Positions 46,612 to 50,748 of a stretch of 64,000 nt of DNA are shown in pieces. The DNA is from Alicyclobacillus mali NBRC 102425 (GTDB lineage: Bacteria > Bacillota > Bacilli > Alicyclobacillales > Alicyclobacillaceae): NCBI RefSeq assembly GCF_001570745.1, contig NZ_BCSG01000020.1, forward strand, positions 1-64,000, in the 5' to 3' direction. Every line of letters starts with the position of its first letter. The first letter of the stretch is position 1. The notes under the pieces were generated by a model. The model was not told the origin of the DNA and did no database searches. It was given only the letters and a program-made list of their open reading frames with translations. The position numbers were made by a program, and so were the translations under genes.

Positions 46612-47601
46612 TCACTCGCCGCTCTGCACGCGCAAGGCGCGCGCACCGAGCGTGCGCAGCAAAGCCGTCATGTCTTCATACCCGCGGTCGATGTGCTGGA
46701 GTCCTTCGACCTCCGTGACGCCATGGGCCGCGAGACCGGCCACGACGAGCGCCGCGCCCCCGCGAAGATCCGCCGCAGCGACGCGCGCGCCGGACAGTCG
46801 CGGAACACCCCGCACAATGGCCGTGCGAAGATCGACCGAGACGTTTGCACCCATGCGCACCAGCTCATCCACGTGCTTGAAGCGGGCTTCGAACACACTT
46901 TCCTGCACGATGCTCGTGCCTCTGGCTATGGTCAAAAACGCCATGAACGGCGCCTGAAGGTCCGTCGGAAACCCTGGGTAAGGCGCAGTGCGGATATCAA
47001 CGGAAGATGGGGTCTCCTCACAGATAACAGTGATTATATCATGCTCCACCTCGGCGCGAACACCCGCATCGCGCAGTTTCTGTAAAACCACGCCCAGATG
47101 ATCCGCCCGTGCCCCCACGAGCTTCACCTCTCCGCCTGCCGCTGCGGCCATGGCCATCACGGTACCTGCCACGATGCGGTCTGGAATAACCGCATAGGTG
47201 GTCTCGGAGAGCTGGGATCTCCCGTGCACCTCAATGCGCGCCGATCCGGCCCCGCGGATCTGCGCGCCCGCCGTGTTCAGGAAGTTTGCCAAGTCTTCCA
47301 CTTCAGGCTCGCGCGCCGCGTTTTCGATAATGGTGATTCCGTCCGCCAAAACCGCCGCCATGAGCAGGTTCTCAGTCGCGCCCACCGATGGAAAATCCAA
47401 CACGATGTGCGTACCGACGAGACGCTTTGCCTGGCAACGGATGAGCCCGTGGGATTCCTCAATCCGCGCTCCCAGCGCCCTGAGCCCGCGCAGATGAAAG
47501 TCAATCGGCCGCTGGCCGATGACGCACCCTCCCGGCTTCGAGACGGTCACCTCACCGCACCGCGCCATCAGGGGCCCCATCAAGAAGATGGAAGACCCCA
47601 T
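46612..47601 (-). CDS. murA: murA, 3' segment (UDP-GlcNAc enolpyruvyl transferase split by an element)
   Basis: Encodes residues 93-419 of MurA, the first committed enzyme of peptidoglycan synthesis. It carries the catalytic cysteine in KPGGCVIGQRPID (C116 of the rejoined protein) and ends normally. The frame opens at an ATG (47601-47599) that lies within the inserted element, without a proper ribosome-binding site; real murA sequence starts at 47595. Missing are the first 92 residues, found at 50748-50473. In this arrangement no active enzyme would be made. Joining at the shared TC restores an uninterrupted 1,260-nt gene. Confidence 0.92.
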   Translation of the reverse strand: MGSSIFLMGPLMARCGEVTVSKPGGCVIGQRPIDFHLRGLRALGARIEESHGLIRCQAKRLVGTHIVLDFPSVGATENLLMAAVLADGITIIENAAREPEVEDLANFLNTAGAQIRGAGSARIEVHGRSQLSETTYAVIPDRIVAGTVMAMAAAAGGEVKLVGARADHLGVVLQKLRDAGVRAEVEHDIITVICEETPSSVDIRTAPYPGFPTDLQAPFMAFLTIARGTSIVQESVFEARFKHVDELVRMGANVSVDLRTAIVRGVPRLSGARVAAADLRGGAALVVAGLAAHGVTEVEGLQHIDRGYEDMTALLRTLGARALRVQSGE

Positions 47602-47610
47602 GCTCCGCGA
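47583..47610 (-). other. Recombination junction of the element, recombinase-proximal
   Basis: Minus strand, from inside to outside: TCGCGGAGCATGGGG, the dinucleotide TC (47594-47595), then TTC-CATCTTCT of murA. The first part is one arm of the deduced attP; the second is half of attB. GGTC is shared with the other junction at 50471-50474. Confidence 0.85.
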
Positions 47611-47625
47611 TAGATGATCTCGACA

Positions 47626-49083
47626 TCACTCGAGCCTCAGGACGAGATCGACATCCACCTCGCGCGAGCGCTTCGGGCGAAACACCCGCACCTCTCGGAC
47701 GACGGCCAGGAACAAGGCGCGCTCCAACTGTGGATCGCCAGCAAGATGGGCGCAGAGATCGTGCACCCACTTCTCCCAGCCCTCGCTAGTGGCAAGGCCC
47801 GTCATCTCGGCCTCCGCCGCGCGACACTCCTCCAACACGCGCAACAGCCGATCCTGCTCGCGCGTATACGCCTCCTCGGACACCACGCTCGACGCGTAGG
47901 CCTCGGCGATCCGCCTCAATCTCGCCAGGGCAATGCGGCGCTTGCGCTGAATCATGCGCAGCTCGTTCGACGCTGCGTTCGACTGATAGGCCGCTACCAA
48001 CGGCTCGAGTTGGGACCGAACGCGGCGGAGAAGTTCCTCCACCACCAGCCGTTCGAGCTCTTCGGCGTCCACCTGGTTTGGCGTACAGCCACCACCTGTG
48101 ACATACCGACCGCAGCGGTAAATCGGCCGCTTTTGGCGATGGTCGCCGCGTGTGGTCACCTGCCAGCCAGCGTACAAGGCGCTCTCGCAGAATCCACAAC
48201 GCGCAATGCCGGCGAGCGGGCGCTTCGAGCCTTGCGATCGCGGCGCCAACGCGCTGCGGCGCTCAAGCATGGCCTGCAGGGTTTCGAATTCCTGGCGGCT
48301 CAAGATGGCCTCGTGCGTTCCCTCGACACGAACCCACTCGGCCGGATCCCGCTCTGTTCGCCGACGCCCCTGGGTCTTTCGACGATTCCACACGGACACG
48401 CCGGCCAACGCGGGATTGGAAAACAGCGTGCGAACCGTGCGGTCGGTCCAAAGCCGTCCCGTCTTCGTCCGCACGCCGAGTGCGTTGAATTCCATCGCGA
48501 CGTCCCTCGGGCTCGCGCCGGTCAGCAAAAGGCGCGCTCCTTCGCGCACCCAGCGCGCCTCCCGCGGATCCGGGGTCAAACGGCCATTCGACAACCGATA
48601 GCCAAAGGGGGGCTTGGTGGCCAACTCACCCCGCTGCGCCATCGCCAACAGGTTTTCGTGTACGCGCTCCGCGATGATCTCTCGCTCGAACTCCGCAATG
48701 ACGGATAGCATCTGCGCCACCAGTCGCCCCATGGCTGTGGAGATCTCGAAATTCTGCCTGGTGGAACGATAAAACACGCCGTGCACGTTCATCTCTTCCA
48801 CCAGCCGCGCGAAATCGGCGACACTGCGGGTCAGACGGTCAATGCGCGTGGTCACAACCCCGACCACGAGCCCGTCGCGGATGTCGGCCCGGAGGCGGTC
48901 CATCGCCGGGCGATTCAACGACTTACCTGAGTATCCGTCATCGCAATAGAGTTGGTAGCAAGGAAAGCCTTGAACCCGCGCGTACGTCACGAGCTGCTCC
49001 TGTTGTTCCTTCAGGCTGTGCCCCGATGTCGCCTGCTCTTCGGTGGAAACGCGGATATACAGCGCCAGATGTCGCTCCTTCAC
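47626..49083 (-). CDS. Large serine recombinase (integrase/excisionase type)
   Basis: 485-residue site-specific recombinase of the same layout as B. subtilis SpoIVCA, which excises skin. The catalytic domain (about 1-140) has nucleophile Ser13 in YIRVSTEEQ and the TRIDRLTRS arginine motif; then a recombinase domain (about 160-265), a zinc ribbon (CGFC ... CGRYVTGGGC, about 290-335) and a C-terminal coiled coil (about 355-440). The start is GTG, overlapping the stop of the 52-residue gene (GTGA), so its translation is probably coupled. Its 3' end lies 32 bases from the att core. Confidence 0.95.
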   Translation of the reverse strand: MKERHLALYIRVSTEEQATSGHSLKEQQEQLVTYARVQGFPCYQLYCDDGYSGKSLNRPAMDRLRADIRDGLVVGVVTTRIDRLTRSVADFARLVEEMNVHGVFYRSTRQNFEISTAMGRLVAQMLSVIAEFEREIIAERVHENLLAMAQRGELATKPPFGYRLSNGRLTPDPREARWVREGARLLLTGASPRDVAMEFNALGVRTKTGRLWTDRTVRTLFSNPALAGVSVWNRRKTQGRRRTERDPAEWVRVEGTHEAILSRQEFETLQAMLERRSALAPRSQGSKRPLAGIARCGFCESALYAGWQVTTRGDHRQKRPIYRCGRYVTGGGCTPNQVDAEELERLVVEELLRRVRSQLEPLVAAYQSNAASNELRMIQRKRRIALARLRRIAEAYASSVVSEEAYTREQDRLLRVLEECRAAEAEMTGLATSEGWEKWVHDLCAHLAGDPQLERALFLAVVREVRVFRPKRSREVDVDLVLRLE

Positions 49084-49238
49084 GGCTCATTCACCCGCCG
49101 GCCGCGGTGCGCAAGCATGCGCTCCACAAGGGGACGGGCGACAGCCATCACGCGGTTCGCCACCTCCGCTTCGGCATCCCGCACAGGAGCCAGTTCCTCA
49201 CGCCGGGCGTCCCAGACGTAGACGGCACGAATTCGCAT
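49080..49238 (-). CDS. 52-residue protein coupled to the recombinase, unknown
   Basis: Reads MRIRAVYVWDARREELAPVR at its start and ends RRVNEP; charged (rich in Arg and Glu), predicted helical, no membrane segment, no family recognised. GGGAGGGG stands six bases before the ATG, inside a 12-bp hairpin. Its stop overlaps the recombinase GTG (GTGA). Position and size suit a directionality factor, a regulator or a leader that couples recombinase translation; none is proven. An in-frame ATG at 49244 is an alternative start. Confidence 0.75.
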   Translation of the reverse strand: MRIRAVYVWDARREELAPVRDAEAEVANRVMAVARPLVERMLAHRGRRVNEP

Positions 49239-49241
49239 GTT

Positions 49242-49278
49242 CATCCCCTCCCGTCAGACCGATATGCGGGAGGGGATG
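49242..49278 (-). promoter_or_regulatory. Hairpin sequestering the ribosome-binding site of the 52-residue gene
   Basis: Minus strand: CATCCCCTCCCG, a 13-base loop, then CGGGAGGGGATG, a perfect 12-bp inverted repeat directly before AACATG. The Shine-Dalgarno bases GGGAGGGG are entirely in the 3' arm. It is not a terminator (no T-run). It would limit translation of the 52-residue gene and the coupled recombinase unless unfolded. Confidence 0.8.
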
Positions 49279-49297
49279 GCCATCTTGCCGGACGAAC

Positions 49298-50290
49298 TCA
49301 GCTCACACGCGCGCCCGCCCTGGACGCAATGGCGTCCGCAATACAAGGCGCCTGCAGTCGGCCGTTTTCGATGAAAATGCGGTTGGCATCAAAGCCGGAC
49401 ACCACGACGCCGGCCACGTAAATGCCGGGCACGTTGGTCTCATACGTCGCCTCATCATGTACCGGAATGCCCGTCTCCGGCGCAATCTGGACGCCGAGCT
49501 TTTCGAGAAACGAAGTATCCGGGTGATAACCGGTCAGCGCCAGGACGTGGTCGCACGGCACGTCCAGCGGACCGCCAGGTGTCTCGACGCGGACGTGATC
49601 CGCGCAGATGGCCGCCACGCGCGAGCGAAAGTGACAGTCGATCGCCTGCTTGTCGATAAGGCTCTGGATGTCGGGCTTCACCCACGGCTTGATTTTGTCA
49701 GACATGGCGGCTCCTCGGTGGACCAGGGTGACCTGCGCGCCGATGCGATGGAGGTCGATGGCGGCCTCAGCCGCTGAATTGGTACCGCCGATGATGACCA
49801 CGCGCTGGCCGTAATACGGATGCGCATCGCGGTAATAGTGACTCACGTGAGGCAGATCTTCGCCCGGCACGCCGAGCATGTTGGGCTGATCGAAATACCC
49901 CGTAGCCACCACGACGGACGAGGCCATCGTTTCAAGCGTCCGCCCAGACAGCGTGCGCGAGTGGATGCGAAATCCCTGCAGCTCGCGATCTCGCTCGACC
50001 GAGATCACTTCCTCGTACTGCCGAACCGGCAACTGAAGCCGCTCAACCACGGTCCGGTAGTACGTCATCGCCTCCATTCGCGTGGGTTTGGCCCGCTCTG
50101 TGTAAAACGGGATTTCACCCAACTCCAGGCGTTCAGGGGTCGAATTGAACACCATCTGCGTCGGAAAACGGTAAATTGTAGAAACAATGCAGGATTTTTC
50201 GATCACGACGTGGGGAATGCTGCGCCGCTTCAGCTCGACCGATACGGCCAAGCCGCATGGACCGGCGCCAATGATACACGCTTCGAACAT
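49298..50290 (-). CDS. ypdA: YpdA-family FAD/NAD(P)-dependent reductase (putative bacillithiol disulfide reductase)
   Basis: 330-residue flavoprotein related to thioredoxin reductase. FAD motif ACIIGAGPCGLAVSVEL at the N-terminus, NAD(P) motif IIGGTNSAAEAAIDL at about 165-180, and the C-terminal TNVPGIYVAGVV. It lacks the CxxC redox pair of thioredoxin reductase, as YpdA (Bdr) does. In homologues it reduces bacillithiol disulfide. AGGAGCGAGG precedes the ATG. It is the first gene of the element. Why a recombinase element would carry it is unknown. Confidence 0.9.
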   Translation of the reverse strand: MFEACIIGAGPCGLAVSVELKRRSIPHVVIEKSCIVSTIYRFPTQMVFNSTPERLELGEIPFYTERAKPTRMEAMTYYRTVVERLQLPVRQYEEVISVERDRELQGFRIHSRTLSGRTLETMASSVVVATGYFDQPNMLGVPGEDLPHVSHYYRDAHPYYGQRVVIIGGTNSAAEAAIDLHRIGAQVTLVHRGAAMSDKIKPWVKPDIQSLIDKQAIDCHFRSRVAAICADHVRVETPGGPLDVPCDHVLALTGYHPDTSFLEKLGVQIAPETGIPVHDEATYETNVPGIYVAGVVVSGFDANRIFIENGRLQAPCIADAIASRAGARVS

Positions 50291-50340
50291 GGCCCTCGCT
50301 CCTAGCGAAAATCTCCGTCTGTGAATCTCTGGACTTCGTC

Positions 50341-50349
50341 ATTATACCA
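50341..50349 (-). promoter_or_regulatory. Extended -10 promoter of the element operon
   Basis: Minus strand: TGGTATAAT, a full TGnTATAAT extended -10 box, about 50 bases before ypdA. No good -35 hexamer is seen at 17 bases, which is usual for extended -10 promoters. No other promoter is evident before the recombinase, so it probably drives all three element genes. Confidence 0.65.
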
Positions 50350-50433
50350 CGGAGCGACGGACCTCTCGGCGTCCAGCGGGGATGGATCGGCATGGGACTG
50401 GGGAACAAGCGAGGTCATGCGAAGAGGGTGTCG

Positions 50434-50748
50434 TCAGGATCCAGTCATGAGCAATTCGCGCATCATGGGGGACCTCATCTTCTGCATGAGATGAGACGGA
50501 ACTTGCGTTGAAGTAAGCGACGTGGCATCGACCTTCACGGTACCAGAGGACATCGAGACCGTCGCGCCAAGACTCCTGAGGATGTCCAGCATGACACGGA
50601 CATCCTCGAGATCCGGGACGTTTTGGATGACCGAGCGCCCCGCAACCATGACGGTGGCCGCGAGAATGGGAAGGGCCGCGTTCTTTGCGCCCGCCACCCT
50701 GACCTCACCCGTCAGCGGAACGCCGCCCTCAATTCGCAGCAATTCCAT
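50434..50748 (-). CDS. murA: murA, 5' segment (interrupted)
   Basis: Encodes the first 92 residues of MurA (MELLRIEGGVPLTGEVRVAG, then AKNAALPILAATVM with the conserved KN pair), ending at KMR before reading 12 unrelated residues of the element and a stop. AGGAGGTG precedes the ATG by eight bases, the correct start. It overlaps the murB end by 20 bases. The missing catalytic part is at 46612-47595. Confidence 0.92.
   Translation of the reverse strand: MELLRIEGGVPLTGEVRVAGAKNAALPILAATVMVAGRSVIQNVPDLEDVRVMLDILRSLGATVSMSSGTVKVDATSLTSTQVPSHLMQKMRSPMMRELLMTGS
50456..50483 (-). other. Recombination junction of the element, ypdA-proximal
   Basis: Minus strand: AGAAGATG-AGG of murA, TC (50471-50472), then CCCCATGATGCGCGA of the element. 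The element arm is the inverted partner of the arm at 47596-47610 (13 of 15 bases). Confidence 0.85.

Follow-up and report, generated by a model that had tools for sequence, protein, structure and literature searches.

A candidate directionality factor gene overlapping the recombinase gene of an element that interrupts murA in Alicyclobacillus

Described excision systems and the murA element

In the skin element of B. subtilis, the gene for the 64-aa protein Skr is reported to overlap spoIVCA by 101 nt, and the host gene split by the element is later rejoined precisely (PMC6957869); skin is described as a prophage-like region of 48 kb with sigK as its target (PMC13141910). For SP-beta, described as an active prophage in which sprB has its own promoters, SprB (58 aa) and SprA are reported to be necessary and sufficient for excision during sporulation, the target being spsM (PMC4191935). 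The gin element in gerE of B. cereus is a non-phage intervening element of 28.6 kb with 31 genes and three recombinases, whose 42-aa product GirX was shown in vitro to be a recombination directionality factor (RDF), girX having come to light through deletion of a region separate from girC (PMC5595907). In the C. difficile skin element, which also targets sigK, the RDF CD1234 is encoded separately from the recombinase gene and is reported to limit excision to the mother cell, while the recombinase CD1231 alone integrates; the same account states that RDFs do not share significant sequence similarity (PMC5025042).

Here we describe an element in Alicyclobacillus mali NBRC 102425, located in the window, by which we mean the whole analysed stretch of 64,000 nucleotides (Table 1). 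The main point, absent from the preliminary description of this DNA, is an element interrupting murA: the N-terminal piece of the gene lies upstream and the remainder downstream, so that the 2,877-bp unit sits inside murA, with ypdA, a small ORF and a large serine recombinase gene between the two pieces. The gene belongs to a dcw cluster of the order murG-murB-(murA)-ftsQ, in which the names of murG, murB and ftsQ were given by eye; the start of the 5' piece, ATG 50748, was also picked by eye, the start in the ORF list being GTG 50757. Like skin, this element splits a host gene and has a small ORF that precedes and overlaps the gene of a large serine recombinase, and like gin it is not a phage. 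It differs from skin in its 2.9 kb, its three genes, its 4-nt overlap and its target, and the likeness is one of arrangement; gin, by comparison, is far larger, and in C. difficile the two genes stand apart. The SprA/SprB pair resembles the pair described here by description, with sprB not joined to sprA but at a distance from it. Among the papers listed in literature searches on murA, intervening elements and Alicyclobacillus with recombinases, no title or abstract reports a murA element, and the subject of an Alicyclobacillus phage paper is a sigK-integrated prophage (PMC13141910).

Table 1. Features of the murA element in the window (slashes set off the TC of the att cores; motifs are read on the strand given)
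Feature	Position	Strand	Basis or remark
Whole intervening element, 2,877 bp	47596..50472		between att crossover sites
5' part of split dcw murA, to crossover	50473..50748	minus	EPSP_synthase 5.9e-16
attL core ATGAGG/TC	50471..50478	minus	crossover inferred at TC, 50472-50471
Extended -10 TGGTATAAT, likely for ypdA	50341..50349	minus	from sequence
ypdA, putative bacillithiol disulfide reductase, element cargo	49298..50290	minus	TIGR04018
Bipartite promoter-like motif CCGGCAA-N16-CGCATA	49263..49291	minus	identical spacing in 10/10 leaders
Hairpin, arms CATCCCCTCCCG and CGGGAGGGGATG, enclosing small-ORF Shine-Dalgarno	49242..49278	minus	folding, alignment
Shine-Dalgarno GGGAGGGG of small ORF	49245..49252	minus	read from sequence
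Small ORF, 52 aa, candidate RDF	49080..49238	minus	ATG 49238-49236, stop TGA 49082-49080
Large serine recombinase, 485 aa	47626..49083	minus	Resolvase + Recombinase + Zn_ribbon_recom
attR core ATGGGG/TC	47594..47601	minus	TC at 47595-47594
3' part of split dcw murA	46612..47601	minus	TIGR01072, 426 bits

Distribution, inheritance and excision of the element

Relatives were sought in 41 genomes of the family, 15 of which belong to the genus. Recombinase orthologues at E <= 1e-90 were found in ten of the 41 (11 matches, two of them in G012), and all ten orthologous elements interrupt murA at the identical codon. Within the genus the element is present in nine genomes, G009 has a contig break at the site, and in G001, G004, G007, G008 and G013 the murA frame is open over 422-432 aa. 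Element sizes are 2.8-2.9 kb in seven genomes, ~7.0 kb in G005 and ~9.2 kb in G021, which belongs to another genus, while A. sacchari (G012) holds two tandem copies. As the G021 element lacks a ypdA match, the gene content common to all ten is the small ORF and the recombinase gene only. Ahead of the small gene, the G005 element (L075:3926-7278) contains ORFs that by eye are GGDEF-like and chemoreceptor-like, with a low-complexity repeat stretch immediately 5' of the leader, and the G021 element (L076:11429-16021) contains a 1,530-aa ORF that by eye is P-type ATPase-like.

The recombinase has the domains of a large serine recombinase, namely a Resolvase catalytic domain (3.4e-35), a Recombinase domain (1.1e-22) and a zinc ribbon (Zn_ribbon_recom, 7.6e-12), and residues S13, C296, C299, C324 and C333 are invariant in the 10-row alignment. 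Its best NCBIfam match is XisF, the recombinase of the fdxN element, at 160 bits; this is far below the cut-off of 375, and the protein is not a member of that equivalog. Viral contigs yielded four distant recombinases at 23-26% identity, and every one of the 756 phage records with a recombinase match was below 60% identity.

The cargo protein scored 441.7 bits on TIGR04018, above the YpdA cut-off of 339.9, and its gene is the sole match at E <= 1e-60 in the window genome. At this threshold ypdA occurs in 11 of the 41 genomes, nine times inside the element and elsewhere in G007 (L073:6638-7618) and G013 (L074:9181-10161), where it lies beside a thioredoxin-reductase-like gene with no recombinase among the adjoining ORFs (both by eye); G021 has no match. 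Because ypdA sits outside murA in these two genomes, the distribution suggests that the murA element captured it. The extended -10 sequence TGGTATAAT is presumably the sigma-A promoter of ypdA, and TATAAT is also present in G003, G006 and G012.

Divergence at synonymous sites in the element is near that of its flanks. Between the window genome and G002, dS is 0.83 for the recombinase gene and 0.70 for ypdA, with 0.62, 0.74 and 0.74 for flanking murB, murG and ftsQ; against G014 the values are 1.39 and 1.00, with 1.13, 1.17 and 1.22. In a MurA tree of 30 rows the element-bearing genomes of the genus and G009 form one clade (92/82), with G021 apart, and element presence takes two changes, of which G021 is the second; the recombinase tree yields matching groups, its branches to G005 and G021 being long and the order within the close group partly open. 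By these comparisons the element is vertically inherited within the genus and, together with the murA halves (dN/dS 0.04-0.13 in every pair with dN > 0), is under purifying selection. One might suppose that the split murA is a redundant paralogue, inactivated by a mobile element that is never excised, the genome having a second, intact murA. Across the clade, however, both halves remain open with strong purifying selection acting on them, and A. sacchari contains an attP junction (see below), which leaves this account very unlikely.

All ten elements carry an ATGxxx/TC att core. Joining the flanks at TC on paper gives a MurA reading frame that runs, from about residue 3, for 415-417 codons and contains KMRSSIF in every one of the ten; uninterrupted relatives have MRSS in all four checked, as RMRSSIF in three and RMRSSVF in one. 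The element therefore combines a recombinase of its own with a frame restored, on paper, by precise excision, as gene-intervening elements do. The predicted attP, GCATGGGG/TC/CCCCATG, has palindromic symmetry about TC in the window genome (ATGGGG/TC/CCCCAT) and is less symmetric in G003, G006, G012, G005 and G021; a short shared core with imperfect symmetry is what the att sites of large serine recombinases have. A further reading is that the two parts of MurA are translated independently and function as a split enzyme: the 3' half does open with an ATG in attR, but this ATG is part of the att core, and a GGAG box is found only in the window genome and G010, with nothing alike in G003, G006 and G012 (by eye). 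With no conserved ribosome-binding site, we reject this reading as hardly credible.

Two assemblies contain junctions that bear on excision. The A. sacchari locus reads attL-element-attP-element, with a repeat of 2,808 bp, a unit of 2,805 bp and a TCC core, and its inter-copy junction is exactly the predicted attP; the junction expected of the circle is thus present in the assembled sequence. Behind the attR of copy two comes an assembly gap filled with N (L014:6800-7000), and the end of the recombinase gene is repeated beyond the gap. In G009, contig C28 ends in AAGATGA, as judged from the truncated locus L065, and the first letters of contig C59 are GGGGTCTTCC, which are those of attR and not those of attB; the break is at the att core, and the assembly has no recombinase or ypdA match. 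Another contig break in G009 falls where a second intervening element joins a sigK-like gene. The attP of A. sacchari and the breaks in G009 form the pattern expected of mixed integrated and excised DNA, which is strong but indirect evidence; the former could also be a true tandem array and the latter plain assembly failure. We consider it highly probable from these sequences that the element can be excised.

The small gene and its leader

The preliminary description had reported a 52-residue ORF with a strong Shine-Dalgarno sequence and a GTGA overlap with the recombinase start, and both coordinates and sequence agree with it: the recombinase start GTG 49083-49081 shares GTGA with the end of the small ORF in the window genome. 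GGGAGGGG (49252-49245) lies 6 nt from ATG 49238 and 0 nt from an in-frame ATG at 49244, which would lengthen the ORF by two residues; given this spacing, and homologues able to start at the position matching ATG 49238, the 52-residue ORF is the better reading. The small ORF is a real gene. Among five close species its variable sites at codon positions 1, 2 and 3 number 21, 11 and 36 (51 codons), and dN/dS is 0.11-0.41 in nine of ten pairs, with dN = 0 in the tenth. Low dS for the pairs of the window genome with G002 and of G002 with G010 prompted the idea of extra synonymous constraint, which window sampling refuted (0.72 against a mean of 0.78; 24% of 814 overlapping windows were equally low).

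Homologues next to other recombinases were sought, and directly before the orthologous recombinase gene in the ten element-bearing genomes lies either a homologue (eight) or a positional counterpart (two). Across the 41 genomes, close homologues are found in G002, G010, G011 and G014 (E 2.5e-23 to 3.3e-19) and weak ones in G003, G006 and G012 (E 0.05-0.09), each of the latter directly 5' of the recombinase gene. G005 and G021 have an ORF in the same position behind the same leader motif; with the 8-member profile, these counterparts scored E 0.17 (rank 1) and E 2.3 (rank 3) among 858 ORFs, neither of them a significant sequence match. The small ORF and the recombinase gene overlap in seven of the ten genomes, by GTGA in five, by ATGA in G003 and by 11 nt in G006; the overlap is uncertain in G011 and there is none in G005 and G021. 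A third match in G012 (contig C14) lies inside a 473-aa frame with a stop, and a match in G023 (E 0.06), with no murA, ypdA or recombinase around it (L016), was taken as chance.

In a wider contig scan with the recombinase alignment, in which the best 80 of at least 534 relatives were examined, the small-family profile matched A. fructus and, twice, A. sacchari, which are two of the three Alicyclobacillus records; the remaining matches among these 80, L126 (E 5.7) and L086 (E 9.2), were taken as chance. Outside A. fructus and A. sacchari, the loci of these best 80 of at least 534 relatives had no murA, ypdA, murB or murG matches, and no homologues of the small protein were found outside the one recombinase lineage. 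Searches of Pfam, NCBIfam, PHROGs, PDB and phages gave no significant family match for the 52-aa ORF, the sub-significant ones being one PDB chain at E 0.23 and a best E of 0.1 in another library search. The predicted fold consists of two strands followed by one long helix (mean pLDDT 83, pTM 0.47), for which the best Foldseek match had E 6.7, so that neither DNA-binding nor other structures matched significantly. The family, PDB, phage and fold searches showed no resemblance to known RDFs in sequence or fold. Eight of the ten members are basic.

The preliminary description had offered two functions for this gene, a directionality factor or a leader controlling recombinase translation. The first has gained from the homologue or counterpart before the recombinase gene in all ten genomes and from the need for the element to leave if murA is to be intact; the activity itself we infer. 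As a small protein encoded within the element near the integrase, it is placed as RDFs are, and since only the small ORF and the recombinase gene recur in all elements, it is best explained as the RDF of the recombinase whose gene it overlaps, a reading to which our analysis gives a probability of about 0.7. By analogy with Skr, SprB, GirX and CD1234, it would most likely turn the recombinase towards attL x attR. Counting against it, the serine recombinases of SCC cassettes are said to excise without a factor (as told in PMC5595907). The second function has been weakened because the amino-acid sequence is conserved. The overlap in seven genomes and, in the window genome, a ribosome-binding site within a hairpin would suit an ORF that mainly brings ribosomes to the recombinase start while its protein is functionless, and the overlap may well couple translation; however, the dN/dS values, the coding pattern of variable sites and the retention of the ORF in G005 and G021 despite zero overlap render a mere coupling role improbable.

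The leader of the small gene is conserved in its own right, its 60 noncoding nucleotides having an identity of 0.90 among five close species, comparable to the best-conserved coding stretches, versus 0.27-0.31 for the noncoding stretch after attL. All ten leaders contain CCGGMAA-N16-CGCATA with exact spacing. The hairpin stands out from shuffled sequences in the window genome only (z -3.4), with z of -1.1 to -1.9 in G002, G010, G011 and G014 and of -0.5 to +0.6 in G003, G006, G012, G005 and G021. It has one mismatch in G014. In G003, G006 and G012, where the loop is 4 nt shorter, the arms remain paired although both carry changes; because the leader alignment is out of register between clades in the 3' arm, this pairing was judged by eye, and we claim no covariation statistic. 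If transcription is assumed to start after CGCATA, the cost of opening the ribosome-binding site is greater in read-through than in internally started RNA in nine of ten genomes at 37 C (the exception being G006) and in all ten at 60 C. Rfam gave six matches, with E up to 5 and all below the gathering score, one of them on the other strand of the hairpin.

The dyad formed by the hairpin DNA could alternatively be a site at which the small protein acts as a repressor or autoregulator 5' of its own gene, keeping the recombinase off. The conserved upstream box, a noncoding leader about as conserved as the best coding stretches and the mostly basic proteins would all fit, but the predicted fold has no significant DNA-binding or other structural match and the 3' arm of the hairpin is accounted for by the Shine-Dalgarno sequence itself; we regard such a repressor as decidedly improbable.

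The idea that the leader motif is a genus-wide sigma promoter was not borne out by a scan of its own genome, which gave six matches (leader included) against nine in the control; the sole other exact match in that genome lies within spoIIIAA. CGCATA is common to the leader motif and to the sigK and spoIVA promoters, which are conserved genus-wide, and spoIIID and spoIIIAA have GCATAC...CATATACA. The upstream box of the leader differs from the spoIIID, spoIIIAA and spoIVA footprints and from the -35 of sigK and spoIVA, and no sigma-K 'AC' was seen in the motif. Since this box fits no compared promoter, a sporulation promoter is a guess with one matching half.

A proposed excision cycle and its setting

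We propose that, with the small protein present, the recombinase would join attL and attR at the TC of ATGAGG/TC, releasing a circle that carries attP and leaving an intact, in-frame murA, whereas the recombinase without the small protein would only integrate or stay idle. During ordinary growth the factor would be low because its Shine-Dalgarno sequence is locked in the hairpin on mRNA reading through from ypdA; a transcript starting inside the hairpin, after CCGGMAA-N16-CGCATA, would free it, and the GTGA overlap would then couple translation of the recombinase to that of the small ORF. For such silencing of the ribosome-binding site on read-through mRNA we see even odds. The likeliest setting would be the mother cell during sporulation, where murA would be needed again for engulfment or cortex peptidoglycan and where loss of the element would not be inherited; a tie to sporulation is, on balance, the probable one.

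Excision might instead follow another cue, such as cell-envelope stress with an ECF sigma factor as mediator, or occur by random phase variation. The 16-nt spacing from GGMAA to CGCATA recalls ECF promoters, and MurA is an enzyme of the envelope. On the other side, the element is retained in all nine clade members whose site is assembled (a contig end interrupts the tenth), a circle with no obvious replication origin would presumably often be lost if excised in dividing cells, and the second intervening element, present genus-wide, sits in a sigK-like sigma gene. We judge another cue unlikely, though worth keeping in view.

A setting in sporulation can be compared with the gene complement of the genus. 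The genes spoIVA, spoIIID and spoIIIAA are present in all 15 genomes of the genus, and the second, intact murA lies beside a spoIID-like gene (named by eye) near spoIIID, a neighbourhood that we compared with what we take to be the murAA gene order of B. subtilis. On PRK12830, which we assume to stand for MurAB, the uninterrupted dcw murA orthologue of G007 scored 492.2 bits against a cut-off of 552; the dcw murA is accordingly not assigned to that NCBIfam equivalog, and only its role may be alike. The MurAB of B. subtilis, a non-essential second MurA, is described as providing precursors for engulfment and cortex (PMC9600426, PMC12251134). G005 has a third murA-like gene (G005:C27:146-1099).

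The second compact element (~2.4 kb) splits the sigK-like sigma gene at L212:2690-5140 (G000:C19) and in L213-L224, pieces of the split gene being listed in all 15 genomes of the genus. In L212 and L217 this element contains, by eye, a DedA-like gene and the gene of a large serine recombinase other than that of the murA element. One G009 contig ends at its junction (L226) and another starts there (L225); read in succession they resemble the rejoined gene. G007, G013, G004 and G008 (L221-L224) have the sigK-like gene in three pieces, a pattern suggestive of another insertion. About 105 kb interrupt the main sigK of G013 (G013:C1:3019504-3125428), perhaps a sigK-integrated prophage.

Taken jointly, our tentative reading, for which the chances fall slightly short of even, is that of an ancient, domesticated three-gene element that would keep a murA paralogue off in vegetative cells and leave it whole only in the terminal mother cell, with a new family of ~52-aa RDFs whose mRNA would silence itself when made by read-through and be opened only from an internal promoter within the hairpin. 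Retained as it is through the whole clade, the unit points to a rearrangement that is probably useful to the host. If this holds, the pair would offer a compact integrase and RDF from a thermophile, with overlapping genes in a single operon and with att sites that are defined, useful in tests of RDF reversal, together with a candidate RNA switch that silences such a pair inside a transcribed operon. A core peptidoglycan enzyme would join the few genes rebuilt by programmed excision, through a very small unit of 2.9 kb comprising a recombinase, its factor and one cargo gene, and the genus would hold at least two compact switches, in murA and in a sigK paralogue. Programmed rearrangement would then act on peptidoglycan supply, beyond sporulation regulators and genes of the spore coat and envelope.
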